A program made the translations under genes and the position numbers. The notes under the pieces are model-generated. The model was not told the origin of the DNA and did no database searches. It worked only from the letters and a program-made list of their open reading frames with translations. A DNA stretch of 35,835 nt from Bacillota bacterium (GTDB lineage: Bacteria; Chloroflexota; Dormibacteria; Dormibacterales; Dormibacteraceae): the NCBI GenBank assembly GCA_021323605.1, contig JAJPKS010000192.1, positions 1 through 35,835 of the forward strand. Reading direction: 5' to 3'. This document shows, piece by piece, positions 735 to 6,727 of this stretch (position 1 is the first letter of the stretch; each line of letters begins with the position of its first letter).

Positions 735-1391
735 ATGGCTGAAACCCAGGACAGCGTTCCCGCTGGTCGAACCCGCTGGCGCCGAGTCGCCGCCGTGCTC
801 GCCCCCGCCTACCTGACCCTGGCGGCGCTGGTCGTCCTCGCCTGGTCGGGGGTGCTCGCCGTCTCCTTCGCCATCTCGGGCACGGCGTTCACGGTCACCG
901 CGGACAACCTGACCAGCACCGGAACGGACGGCAACGGGCTGGGCTTCTACCAGCTGGGCGTCGTCGACTTCAAGGGCGACGGCACCCCGGTGCCCCAGGT
1001 GGAGTCGATCATCCCCAGCGCCAGCCTGACCAACCTCTGCCAGTCCGTGTCCGTGGGCCCGCTCACGTTGCGGATCACGGCCGGTGACGCCGGCACGCCG
1101 GTGACGGCCAGCAACCTGGTGGTGGACGCCACCTCGCTGAGCGCGGGCAGCGCCCAGTTCTCGAACATCAACATCGGCCAGGACATGGGCCAGTTCTCCA
1201 ACCCGGCCCTGACCGCGCCCACCGGACGTGGCTCGGGGCCGAACGTGAACACCGGCCCCGTGCCGGCCGGGACCTTCGGGCAGACGGCGACCGCGGTGAC
1301 CATCAACAGCCTGCGGCAGGTGGCCAACGGGACCTCGGCCAGCTCGTTCACGCTCCCGCACCTGAACCTCGGCTTCGGGTCGGCGTGCTGA
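735..1391 (+). CDS. DUF6230 family exported or membrane-anchored protein
   Basis: 218 residues. A charged N terminus (AGRTRWRR) precedes one long hydrophobic segment (about residues 18-48) that ends near SFAISGTAF, so the protein is either cleaved or membrane anchored. The remainder is a soluble, Gly/Thr/Ser/Asn-rich, beta-type domain with two Cys (in NLCQS and the C-terminal GSAC) that could form a disulfide outside the cell. The arrangement and the DUF6114 partner downstream match the DUF6230 family, sometimes annotated 'cholesterol esterase' without good support. Start chosen at ATG 735 because GGGAGGTG lies 6 nt upstream; an in-frame ATG at 681 lacks a ribosome site. Function unknown; a surface or envelope role is inferred. 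Confidence 0.8.
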   Translation: MAETQDSVPAGRTRWRRVAAVLAPAYLTLAALVVLAWSGVLAVSFAISGTAFTVTADNLTSTGTDGNGLGFYQLGVVDFKGDGTPVPQVESIIPSASLTNLCQSVSVGPLTLRITAGDAGTPVTASNLVVDATSLSAGSAQFSNINIGQDMGQFSNPALTAPTGRGSGPNVNTGPVPAGTFGQTATAVTINSLRQVANGTSASSFTLPHLNLGFGSAC

Positions 1392-1431
1392 CGGACTGCC
1401 TGGCCTCCGAGCCAGCCCCCGCCGCGGAGGC

Positions 1432-1914
1432 GTGGTCACGGAGGACGGTGGGAGGGCGCCCGGCGGCGCTCTCCCCCGGCGTCGCCGGATGAGGACCGGC
1501 CTCGGGCTCGTGGGTCGGTCGGGGGCACCGGGCGGCTACCGCGAGTCGTGGCTGCGGCGGATGCGCGCCCGCTTTCGCGGCTGGCGCCGAACGCGCCCCT
1601 TCTGGGGTGGCCTCTGGTGCCTGATCGGAGGGTGCCTGATCGCCTTCGGGCCGGCCACGGCGATCAGGGTGATCCTGATCGCCGGCACCACCGTCTGGCT
1701 GGGCATCGTGGTCGGAGTGATCGTCGCGGTGATGGGGCTCTTCCTGTGGTTCACGCCCCACCTCCGCCAGATCGCCGGCATCCTGGCGGTCGTGTTCTCG
1801 ATGGTCTCGCTTTTGACCTCGGACTACGGCGGCTTCCTGATCGGGCTGATCCTGGGCACCGTGGGCGGAGCGCTGGGGTTCGCCTGGACGCCGGTGCAGC
1901 GGCCGGCGAGGTAG
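1432..1914 (+). CDS. DUF6114 family integral membrane protein
   Basis: About 160 residues if GTG 1432 is used. A basic N-terminal stretch (RMRARFRGWRRTRPF) is followed by four hydrophobic segments, beginning with a FWGGLWCLIGGCLIAFGP-type helix, with short loops. This is the layout of DUF6114 proteins, which are typically encoded next to DUF6230 proteins in actinobacteria. It lies 40 nt after the DUF6230 gene and 3 nt before the signal peptidase, so one transcript is likely. The start is uncertain: GGAGG ends 1 nt before GTG 1432, which is too close, and ATG 1489 has no clear ribosome site. No enzymatic motif is visible. A membrane partner of the DUF6230 protein is inferred from synteny. Confidence 0.75.
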   Translation: MVTEDGGRAPGGALPRRRRMRTGLGLVGRSGAPGGYRESWLRRMRARFRGWRRTRPFWGGLWCLIGGCLIAFGPATAIRVILIAGTTVWLGIVVGVIVAVMGLFLWFTPHLRQIAGILAVVFSMVSLLTSDYGGFLIGLILGTVGGALGFAWTPVQRPAR

Positions 1915-1917
1915 CCG

Positions 1918-2538
1918 GTGCGTCGCGCTGCCAGGCTGGTTCGAGACGCCGGCCTCGTCCTCGCCTCGCTGGTCGCCCTGGCGGCGCTGGCGCTGGCGCT
2001 CCTGACGGTTCGGGTGGACGGTCTCAGCATGTCCCCCACCCTCCACGACGGGGACGCGCTGATCGCCGATCGGTTCCTGCTCCCCTGGCAGTCGCCGCAC
2101 CGCGGCGATCTCGTGATCCTGCTGCAGCCCAACGGGGTGGCCGCGGTCAAGCGGGTCATCGGCCTGCCCGGGGACACGATCGAGATCGAGGATCGGCCCC
2201 CGTGGCCCGGCGCTCCCCCGTCCCACCCCACGATCTCGATCAAGCCCGGTGGCCGGGGGCCGTGGCGCAGGTTGGTGGAGCCGTACCTCGAGCCGGGATG
2301 GGTGCGGCTGGGGTCCTGCTGCGACGCTCAGGGCCGGGCGGTGAGCGGCGAGCCCCGGCCTCTGAGCCTCCCCCCGGGCCGGTACTTCGTGCTGGGAGAC
2401 AACCGCAACGCCTCGCTGGACTCACGGGAGTTCGGGCTCGTGCCCCGTTCCCGCATCGTCGGCCTCGTCCTGGCCCGGTACTGGCCCCTCGACCGGGCCG
2501 GCGTCCTGGCCGCCCGGCCCCGGCTGGCCGCGGCGTGA
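1918..2538 (+). CDS. lepB: Type I signal peptidase (S26 family)
   Basis: 206 residues. One N-terminal transmembrane segment (about residues 10-31) is followed at once by the catalytic box GLSMSPTL, with nucleophile Ser37. The general-base Lys78 is in VKRVIGLPGD, and the C-terminal box GDNRNASLDSREFG closes the fold. All S26A catalytic motifs are intact. It cleaves signal peptides at the outer face of the membrane. The gene begins (GTG) 3 nt after the DUF6114 stop, so it is probably co-expressed with the DUF6230/DUF6114 pair, whose exported member is a natural substrate. The domain between Lys78 and the GDNRN box carries Cys-Cys (GSCCDAQ). A hairpin lies directly after the stop. Confidence 0.92.
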   Translation: MRRAARLVRDAGLVLASLVALAALALALLTVRVDGLSMSPTLHDGDALIADRFLLPWQSPHRGDLVILLQPNGVAAVKRVIGLPGDTIEIEDRPPWPGAPPSHPTISIKPGGRGPWRRLVEPYLEPGWVRLGSCCDAQGRAVSGEPRPLSLPPGRYFVLGDNRNASLDSREFGLVPRSRIVGLVLARYWPLDRAGVLAARPRLAAA

Positions 2539-5435: not shown

Positions 5436-6086
5436 TCAGCGGCGGAGGTGGTCGAAGAGCGTGTCCCAGTACAGCAGCTCATAGCCCTGGAGCAGGCGCG
5501 CCGCTCTGGCGATCCGACGCTCGGGCACCCCCTGCTCCAGCCCGCTCGCCACCACCTCCAGGGCCCGCTCTTCGAAGTCGCGATCGGGCTCGGCGAAGAG
5601 GTCGAAGAAACGCACCTCCGCCTCCGTTAGCCCGTAGCCACGCTTCAGCGCCGTGGCCATCCGGGCGCAGCTCTCGCCCCAGGTGGCGAAGTTCACCAGG
5701 TACGCGCCCGCCACCTCGGCCGCGGAGGCGTGGCTGGCCAGCCAGGCCATGTAGGCGGCGTAGGCGTGGGCTCCGGGCAAGGGCTCGTAGGCCTCCAGGT
5801 CCTCCCCCGTCATCCCCAGCGCGGAGGCGAAGTGCGGCAATGCCTCCCACGCCGCCCGCTCTCCGTCCAGGACGTGGAGGAAGAGCCCGTCGCCGAAGCG
5901 AGCCACGAGGCGGGCGACGCTGCGCAGGTCGCTGGCGATGATCGCGTGCTGCTCTCCGGCGAAGGGGCGGAGCCGGGCCAGGTCGATCCCCGCCTCGACG
6001 GTTCGGAGGTAGGGGTGGTCGACGAGCCGGTCGTGCTCGGGGGTGAGCTCCTCTCGGATGCGTTCGATCAACGCGTGGGCCGCCAT
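5436..6086 (-). CDS. TenA/THI-4-like protein (heme-oxygenase-like fold)
   Basis: 216 residues, almost wholly helical. It follows the TenA/PqqC-type pattern: N-terminal IREELTPEHDRLVDHPYL, a central HAIIASDLRSVARLV helix, a YAAYMAWLASHAS segment with aromatic residues, GESCARMATAL, and a C-terminal FFDLFAEPDRDFEERALEVV helix. TenA enzymes degrade or salvage thiamine intermediates, but many relatives act on other small molecules, so the substrate is open. Start at ATG 6086 is supported by a -10-like TATGCT ending 7 nt upstream, the spacing used by other leaderless genes here. In-frame ATG 6098 and GTG 6104 are alternatives. It is divergent from the adenosyltransferase gene. Confidence 0.7.
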   Translation of the reverse strand: MAAHALIERIREELTPEHDRLVDHPYLRTVEAGIDLARLRPFAGEQHAIIASDLRSVARLVARFGDGLFLHVLDGERAAWEALPHFASALGMTGEDLEAYEPLPGAHAYAAYMAWLASHASAAEVAGAYLVNFATWGESCARMATALKRGYGLTEAEVRFFDLFAEPDRDFEERALEVVASGLEQGVPERRIARAARLLQGYELLYWDTLFDHLRR

Positions 6087-6093
6087 CGGCCTC

Positions 6094-6099
6094 AGCATA
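6094..6099 (-). promoter_or_regulatory. Leaderless -10 box TATGCT
   Basis: Minus-strand TATGCT ends 7 nt before the ATG at 6086, so transcription would begin at or next to the start codon. No -35 match. Confidence 0.45.
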
Positions 6100-6130
6100 G
6101 TCACGGTCGAGGTGCATGGGCGGACGCGAG

Positions 6131-6136
6131 TAGAGT
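6131..6136 (+). promoter_or_regulatory. Leaderless -10 box TAGAGT
   Basis: TAGAGT is followed by 6 nt and the GTG at 6143. There is no Shine-Dalgarno between, consistent with a leaderless transcript. Confidence 0.5.
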
Positions 6137-6142
6137 GATCCC

Positions 6143-6727
6143 GTGGCCGGGCGCAGGAAGGCGATGCACGAGCTGGCGGGAAGCGGCGACGACGGCTCCA
6201 CCGGTCTCCTGGGTGGCGGACGCGCGTCCAAGGACGATCTCCGGATCGAGGCCTACGGCACGGTGGATGAGGCGTCCAGCGCGCTCGGACTGGCCCGCTC
6301 GCTCAGCTCCAGCCCGGAGGTGCGGGAGATCGTGGAGGGTCTCCAGCGGGGCCTCTATCGGCTGGGCGCGGAGCTGGCCACCAACCCCGCCCGGGCGGGG
6401 AGGTTCGTGACCACGTCGGCGAGGGACGTGGCCGAGCTGGAGCGCATCACGGCCCGGCTGGAGGCGGAGGTCACCATGCCCGACGAGTTCATCCTGCCCG
6501 GTGCCACCCCCGCCTCTGGCGCCCTGGACCTGGCCCGGGCAATCGTTCGCCGGGCCGAGCGCCGCTGTGTCACCCTGGTCCGCGAGGGCGGCCTGGGCAA
6601 CCTCGAGGTACGACGCTACCTGAACCGCCTGAGCCTGCTCCTCTTCGTGCTGGCACGGTACGAGGAGGACCGGAGCGGCCGGCGGGCGAAGCCGGCCCGG
6701 GAGGCGACGAGCCCGGGGGACGGCTGA
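6143..6727 (+). CDS. pduO: Cob(I)alamin adenosyltransferase, PduO type
   Basis: 194 residues. It transfers the adenosyl group of ATP to cob(I)alamin to make adenosylcobalamin. The N-terminal ATP-binding motif GDDGSTGLLGG (residues 15-25) is followed by EAYGTVDEASSALGLA. The C-terminal helix carries the Arg-rich signature AIVRRAERRC, and LGNLEVRRYLNRLSLLLF closes the five-helix bundle. Length fits the family. Start is GTG 6143, placed 6 nt after a -10-like TAGAGT, so the message is probably leaderless. The last ~20 residues are a charged low-complexity tail. A likely client such as methylmalonyl-CoA mutase or ribonucleotide reductase is not in the window. Confidence 0.9.
   Translation: MAGRRKAMHELAGSGDDGSTGLLGGGRASKDDLRIEAYGTVDEASSALGLARSLSSSPEVREIVEGLQRGLYRLGAELATNPARAGRFVTTSARDVAELERITARLEAEVTMPDEFILPGATPASGALDLARAIVRRAERRCVTLVREGGLGNLEVRRYLNRLSLLLFVLARYEEDRSGRRAKPAREATSPGDG

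Follow-up and report, generated by a model that had tools for sequence, protein, structure and literature searches.

A DUF6230–DUF6114–signal peptidase gene trio as a possible export and processing unit, with a linked peptidase in two bacterial lineages

The window (the whole stretch of 35,835 nucleotides that was analysed) carries genes for a DUF6230 protein, a DUF6114 membrane protein and a type I signal peptidase in succession on the plus strand. The same genome holds a second signal peptidase gene, the linkage of a peptidase gene to the DUF pair recurs in a distant lineage, and Ala is conserved at the predicted P1 position of the DUF6230 proteins. We give about an even chance to the reading that the trio is one expression unit for an exported DUF6230 protein and that a second peptidase was recruited in two lineages for its cleavage. 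This dedicated-export reading is plausible for the loci that have the peptidase, and it is not general for the DUF pair.

The three open reading frames (735–1391, 1432–1914 and 1918–2538, all on the plus strand) are open and coding-like. The sequence-only reading had recognised DUF6230, DUF6114 and an intact type I signal peptidase at these places, and all three scored above the curated model cut-offs. The DUF6230 protein (735–1391, +) has 218 aa and gave 111.9 bits against PF19741 (cut-off 27.5). It is the single DUF6230 match in the window assembly and shares 72% identity with the copy of the same-genus genome G001. According to its hydropathy, an N-terminal hydrophobic signal segment (29–47) is followed by a predicted exported domain, and the protein has two Cys residues, Cys102 and the C-terminal Cys218. 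The DUF6114 membrane protein (1432–1914, +; up to 160 aa; PF19609 106.1 bits, cut-off 27.9) shows about four hydrophobic segments by hydropathy. Its start is uncertain and may be GTG 1432, ATG 1489 or ATG 1561, while its conserved domain starts near 1564. The close packing noted earlier therefore stands for the gap of 3 nt between DUF6114 and the peptidase, but the gap of 40 nt behind DUF6230 holds only from GTG 1432 and becomes 97 or 169 nt from ATG 1489 or ATG 1561.

The peptidase (1918–2538, +) has 206 aa and one N-terminal hydrophobic segment by hydropathy, and it gave 113.9 bits against PF10502 (cut-off 22.9) and 118.9 against TIGR02227 (cut-off 47). In an alignment of 10 peptidases, a Ser (GLSMSP, codon 2026–2028, +) and a Lys (AAVKRVIG, codon 2149–2151, +) in conserved boxes were invariant, and the GDN box was present. 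From general knowledge of the family, we take these two residues to be the catalytic Ser and the general-base Lys. An insert ahead of the GDNR box contains an adjacent Cys pair (2317–2322, +), which is common to the nine aligned linked peptidases. By the models and the Ser/Lys pattern, the enzyme is a bacterial type I signal peptidase (TIGR02227/PF10502). It is like the LepB relatives in sequence family, Ser/Lys pattern, GDNR box and single N-terminal hydrophobic segment, and differs from them in the double-Cys insert, in being a second copy and in its linkage to DUF6230/DUF6114. Rfam at gathering thresholds gave no match within the window. Positions 1–300, at the contig start, contain low-complexity repeats, and their minus strand, read by eye, would encode a protein rich in Pro and Ser that has a signal-like end and is cut by the contig edge.

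It had been proposed to look for a second signal peptidase in the genome, and one was found, so the window gene is not the only one. The window assembly (G000; 4.35 Mb, 494 contigs, 88.8% complete) harbors at least two S26 genes, the window gene with 111 bits and a gene at C204:25424-25834 with 153 bits, the latter cut by a contig end; G001 likewise has a second S26 gene. In a tree of 52 rows, the C204 gene and its G001 counterpart clustered with eight further peptidases from their family (support 99/95). In the two of these eight whose surroundings were inspected, the gene adjoins parB-like and M16-peptidase-like genes, and yidC-, jag- and rnpA-like genes are nearby (all named by eye). Because the C204 gene groups with these enzymes, its type is, on tree evidence, the usual peptidase of the window's family, and the window peptidase is an additional one. 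Two S26 genes in 4.35 Mb give a chance of about 0.003, in a simple estimate, that one of them lies 3 kb or less from a given locus, which argues that the adjacency is not due to chance.

The distribution of the linked peptidase was surveyed in several draws of genomes. A draw of relatives (101 genomes) contained 3 with DUF6230, and a draw from the window's own phylum (400 genomes) contained 15 with DUF6230 and 17 with DUF6114 over the cut-off. Draws from the family of Nocardioides sp. Root240 (149 genomes) and from the Nocardioides phylum (396 genomes) gave 4 and 24 genomes over the cut-off, and one scan of a collection gave 4 named loci. Between 7 and 30 best first-look candidates were scored per genome, so that some genes may have been missed. 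Counting each place once, there were 62 loci: 22 of the own phylum, 37 from the two draws of actinomycetes and 3 other named loci. Neighbourhoods of about 5–8 kb on each side, contigs permitting, were searched for S26 genes by means of a profile built from the window peptidase; this profile detected 31 of 31 control peptidase loci. A linked peptidase was present in 10 of the 62 loci, namely the window, G001 and eight loci of the Nocardioidaceae type (L097, L098, L099, L100, L122, L139, L141, and L140 with L007, which are one locus split over two contigs and counted once). L122 (G659) is counted under this label irrespective of its family. In L097 (G555:C1), the linked peptidase is read in two overlapping frames at 5906–6561, pointing to a frameshift or a misassembly.

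The peptidase thus stays with the pair in both loci seen of the window genus and in all eight doubled Nocardioidaceae-type loci, but it was not detected in the remaining 52 of the 62 neighbourhoods (0 of 32 other actinomycete loci and 0 of 20 other own-phylum loci), so it is not a general part of the DUF6230/DUF6114 pair. The negatives of G095, G196, G217 and one locus of G315 are weak, being cut by contig ends. In 18 own-phylum genomes, the places of S26 genes in the whole genome agreed with the neighbourhood results. G095, the nearest other relative, has an opposite-strand gene directly after DUF6114 and no linked S26 gene on its contig of 4.5 kb.

Two gene arrangements carry the linked peptidase. 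In G001:C42, the order is that of the window, with DUF6230, DUF6114 and the peptidase co-directional, and when the window was compared with the first 16 kb of this contig of 20.9 kb at E 1e-5, only the trio matched. The Nocardioidaceae type has a row of DUF6230, DUF6114, DUF6230 and DUF6114, usually with a further DUF6230, and its peptidase gene is oriented divergently from this row. This cluster resembles the window in its two DUF families and in a linked peptidase that is related and carries the CC insert; it differs in having two DUF6114 genes, usually three DUF6230 genes, a divergent peptidase and a GDNW box where the window enzyme has GDNR. Named carriers of the doubled cluster are Nocardioides sp. 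Root240 and SLBN-35, Pimelobacter simplex and a Propionibacteriales MAG. Because the own-phylum draw and the Nocardioides-phylum draw have no genome in common, the linkage appears to occur in two phyla. The own phylum may be Chloroflexota or one closely related to it.

DUF6114 accompanies DUF6230 in nearly all loci. Those that we call Streptomyces-like have DUF6230 and then DUF6114 as in the window, but no linked peptidase. The f19 loci of the own phylum also lack a linked peptidase; in them DUF6114 mostly comes first, and a few have DUF6230 on both sides. Neighbouring genes were compared with a custom gene caller, and the comparison is rough. A motif search found a further secreted-looking protein with QPG..PQQRRQ in the cluster of six of the eight Nocardioidaceae-type sequences. 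A TetR-like regulator gene, recognised by eye, recurs near 24 of the compared DUF loci, in both phyla. The own-phylum loci L033–L035, L038, L039 and L134 have a protein like the small chain of ribonucleotide reductase near the DUF6114/DUF6230 pair, and that of L033, the one tested, also contains an SCP-2 sterol-transfer domain. A membrane-like protein of 450 aa is located behind the divergent peptidase in L006, L008 and L009; that of L006, the only one tested, has a sub-threshold similarity to DUF445 and is adjoined by an Abi_alpha-domain protein.

The nine usable linked peptidases formed one clade in trees of 46 rows (100/99), 90 rows (100/99) and 52 rows (100/100), apart from those other peptidases of six of their genomes (G000, G001 and G446–G449) that were included in the trees. 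The L097 peptidase was too short and was left out of all trees. The 90-row tree omits 23 of 113 rows, mostly near-duplicates, plus all four L197 rows, and the 52-row tree has 44 of the 113 rows and 8 new ones. The CC insert was present in 9 of 9 aligned linked peptidases and also in 21 of 27 fetched S26 loci of the sister families f2 and f4, which rules it out as a mark of dedication. In 13 f2 genomes, the sole S26 match is of the double-Cys subtype, and no DUF6230/DUF6114 gene was found near f2 and f4 double-Cys enzymes in the seven neighbourhoods fetched from six genomes. From its sequence distribution, this subtype looks like the general peptidase of the sister families f2 and f4.

The AU test did not reject trees in which the window and G001 enzymes were united with the sister-family enzymes (p 0.137, and 0.281 in the 52-row set) or with the usual enzymes of their own family (p 0.161). 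The alternative placements were about 10 log-likelihood units worse. As neither is rejected, kinship of the window and G001 peptidases with the Nocardioidaceae enzymes is favoured by the trees and not proven; the Nocardioidaceae peptidases sit on a long branch, and the residue composition of the window row is unusual. Only 2 of 396 Nocardioides-phylum genomes, both with the doubled cluster, exceeded 300 bits with a profile of the linked peptidases when the best seven candidates or fewer were scored per genome, and the next score was 124. Since both top genomes were rows of the profile, the gap to 124 bits is telling rather than the top scores. The DUF6114 tree grouped the window with G001 and G095 (98/95), and the Nocardioidaceae with other actinomycetes (97/93), in an alignment of few columns, with many open forks and a long-branch warning. 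This difference suggests that the genes were not moved between the lineages as one block, and a transfer of the whole trio from Nocardioidaceae is not supported. By comparison of the trees, recruitment or exchange of the peptidase appears more likely than block movement. Plasmid searches yielded nothing useful, with 127 records for the peptidase and 5 for DUF6230, all below 60% identity; three of the DUF6230 regions inspected bear no annotation.

The predicted cleavage site of the window DUF6230 protein, inferred from the alignment of 21 DUF6230 proteins, is Ala42/Val43 (GVLA|VSF; 858–863, +). Across the 21 proteins, the predicted P1 residue is Ala in 19, Gly in one and Pro in one, P3 is Ala, Val or Gly in 20, and P2' is Ser, Ala, Asn or Gln in all and aromatic in none. 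The predicted site looks ordinary and is much alike at loci with and without a linked peptidase, and from these residues it suits any type I signal peptidase. As it would demand no special enzyme, dedication, if real, would rest elsewhere, for example on timing or amount.

In Bacillus subtilis, the SipW gene is linked to that of its substrate TasA, and the trio had been compared with this pair. The part of the analogy that stands is the gene linkage of a signal peptidase with an exported protein, whereas enzyme type, substrate family and the peculiarity of the cleavage site differ. SipW is an ER-type enzyme that cleaves TasA, and E. coli LepB cuts the TasA signal peptide badly owing to residues around the site, including Phe at P2', as stated in PMC10269814. 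In contrast, the window enzyme is of the bacterial Ser/Lys type, with DUF6230 as candidate substrate and a non-aromatic residue at the predicted P2'. It scored 14.1 bits against the ER-type model TIGR02228 (cut-off 51.85), with Lys and not His aligned. A search of 11 genomes gave no TIGR02228 match in G000 and G001. Its own family was the sole Pfam match of the DUF6230 protein, and NCBIfam gave no match at E 0.1, so there was no TasA/CalY-type match. Judged by these comparisons, the trio is not a member of the SipW–TasA system and would work, if at all, like it. As a separate observation, ER-type (TIGR02228) peptidases over the cut-off occur elsewhere in all eight doubled-cluster genomes (G446–G449, G538, G555, G587 and G659), five of which have two within a few kb. 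These genomes may therefore harbor a separate SipW-like system.

The statement that DUF6230/DUF6114 pairs have no described function needs some care. In 11 Streptomyces-like loci, DUF6114 is followed on the same strand by a gene for a secreted-looking protein, and in nine of them the next gene, on the other strand, encodes a pyruvate kinase (domains tested in L109 only), which makes DUF6230 the third gene before the pyruvate kinase gene. PMC7494193 gives S. coelicolor pyk2 as SCO5423 and calls SCO5420 a cholesterol esterase with an almost 37-fold rise on Tween40. SCO5420 is three numbers before pyk2, which matches the Streptomyces-like gene order, and on gene order only it is probably the Streptomyces DUF6230 gene. 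A function for DUF6230 may thus already have been proposed. Both PMC4098958 and PMC3514274 cite Xiang et al. 2007 for a novel cholesterol esterase family of actinomycetes, and the name cholesterol esterase probably originates in that work. The 21 DUF6230 proteins have no invariant Ser, His or Asp, so a catalytic triad is not family-wide. An AlphaFold2 model of DUF6230 from 12 sequences was unusable (mean pLDDT 37.3), and the only match of the 21-protein profile among PDB sequences was a phage coat protein (E 0.0088), taken as noise. In the literature covered, which leaves out most subscription journals, the two families were mentioned only once, where a table of Streptomyces promoters lists a DUF6230 gene (PMC12835213), and nothing was found within the same coverage on signal peptidases with such clusters. 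A 'putative cholesterol esterase' of another Streptomyces (PMC12772271) could not be linked to DUF6230.

Under the reading that we prefer, the three genes would be co-transcribed as one unit, and the DUF6230 protein would enter the Sec pathway through its hydrophobic N-terminus. A signal peptidase would cut it after Ala42, so that about 176 residues would remain as an extracellular mature domain, which a disulfide between Cys102 and Cys218 may close. DUF6114, a small polytopic membrane protein, would be its membrane partner in assembly, retention or protection. The window genus and the Nocardioidaceae-type lineage would each have recruited a second, non-housekeeping Ser/Lys peptidase that supplies or specialises this cleavage, possibly with a preference for DUF6230; at loci without a linked peptidase, general peptidases would cut the protein. 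More tentatively, and with somewhat less than even confidence, we suggest a previously undescribed export-and-processing unit of DUF6230, DUF6114 and a dedicated double-Cys Ser/Lys peptidase, linked in two phyla, as a bacterial-type counterpart of SipW–TasA.

The view that the peptidase is specific for DUF6230 draws on the second copy, the recurring linkage and the linked clade, but it is weakened by the 52 loci without a peptidase, the ordinary site and the indecisive AU test. These weaknesses are what would be expected if a spare copy, of the double-Cys or the family-usual type, came to lie beside the DUF pair by happenstance and serves exported proteins at large, as would the place of the subtype as sole S26 match in the 13 f2 genomes and its frequency in f2 and f4. 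This explanation is a doubtful one, however, for the genes have stayed adjacent in two genomes whose flanks differ, the adjacency is found again in a distant lineage in which the genes are oriented otherwise, the linked enzymes cluster together with high support (100/99–100), and chance adjacency is small. The linked peptidase might also act mainly on other exported proteins, such as the extra secreted proteins of the Nocardioidaceae cluster, with DUF6230 incidental. The QPG..PQQRRQ protein in that cluster fits such a role, but the window trio lacks it, and DUF6230 is the only product of the trio, apart from the peptidase, in which a soluble domain follows a hydrophobic segment at the N-terminus, so we consider this quite improbable.

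A true fibre system of the SipW/TasA type, with an ER-type peptidase and a TasA-like subunit, would share with the trio the linkage of a peptidase gene to an exported-protein gene. The low score on the archaeal/ER-type model with the Ser/Lys pattern, the ER-type searches of G000 and G001, the restriction of DUF6230 to its own family and the absence of an aromatic predicted P2' in the 21 proteins make it extremely unlikely. A further proposal concerns the activity of DUF6230 and is compatible with the export unit that we favour: the unit would export a lipid- or sterol-ester-acting protein, DUF6230 being the actinomycete 'cholesterol esterase' family and the peptidase a secretion helper. The name and Tween40 response of SCO5420, the place of DUF6230 before the pyruvate kinase gene and the citations of Xiang et al. 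point to it, while the identification by gene order only and the lack of an invariant Ser, His or Asp speak against it, and we regard it as rather unlikely.

Both DUF6230 and DUF6114 are curated as families without an assigned function, and the recurrent linked peptidase makes the cleavage of DUF6230 worth a test. The gene-order link to SCO5420 suggests that work on Streptomyces may have named a function for this family already, and it offers a laboratory organism.
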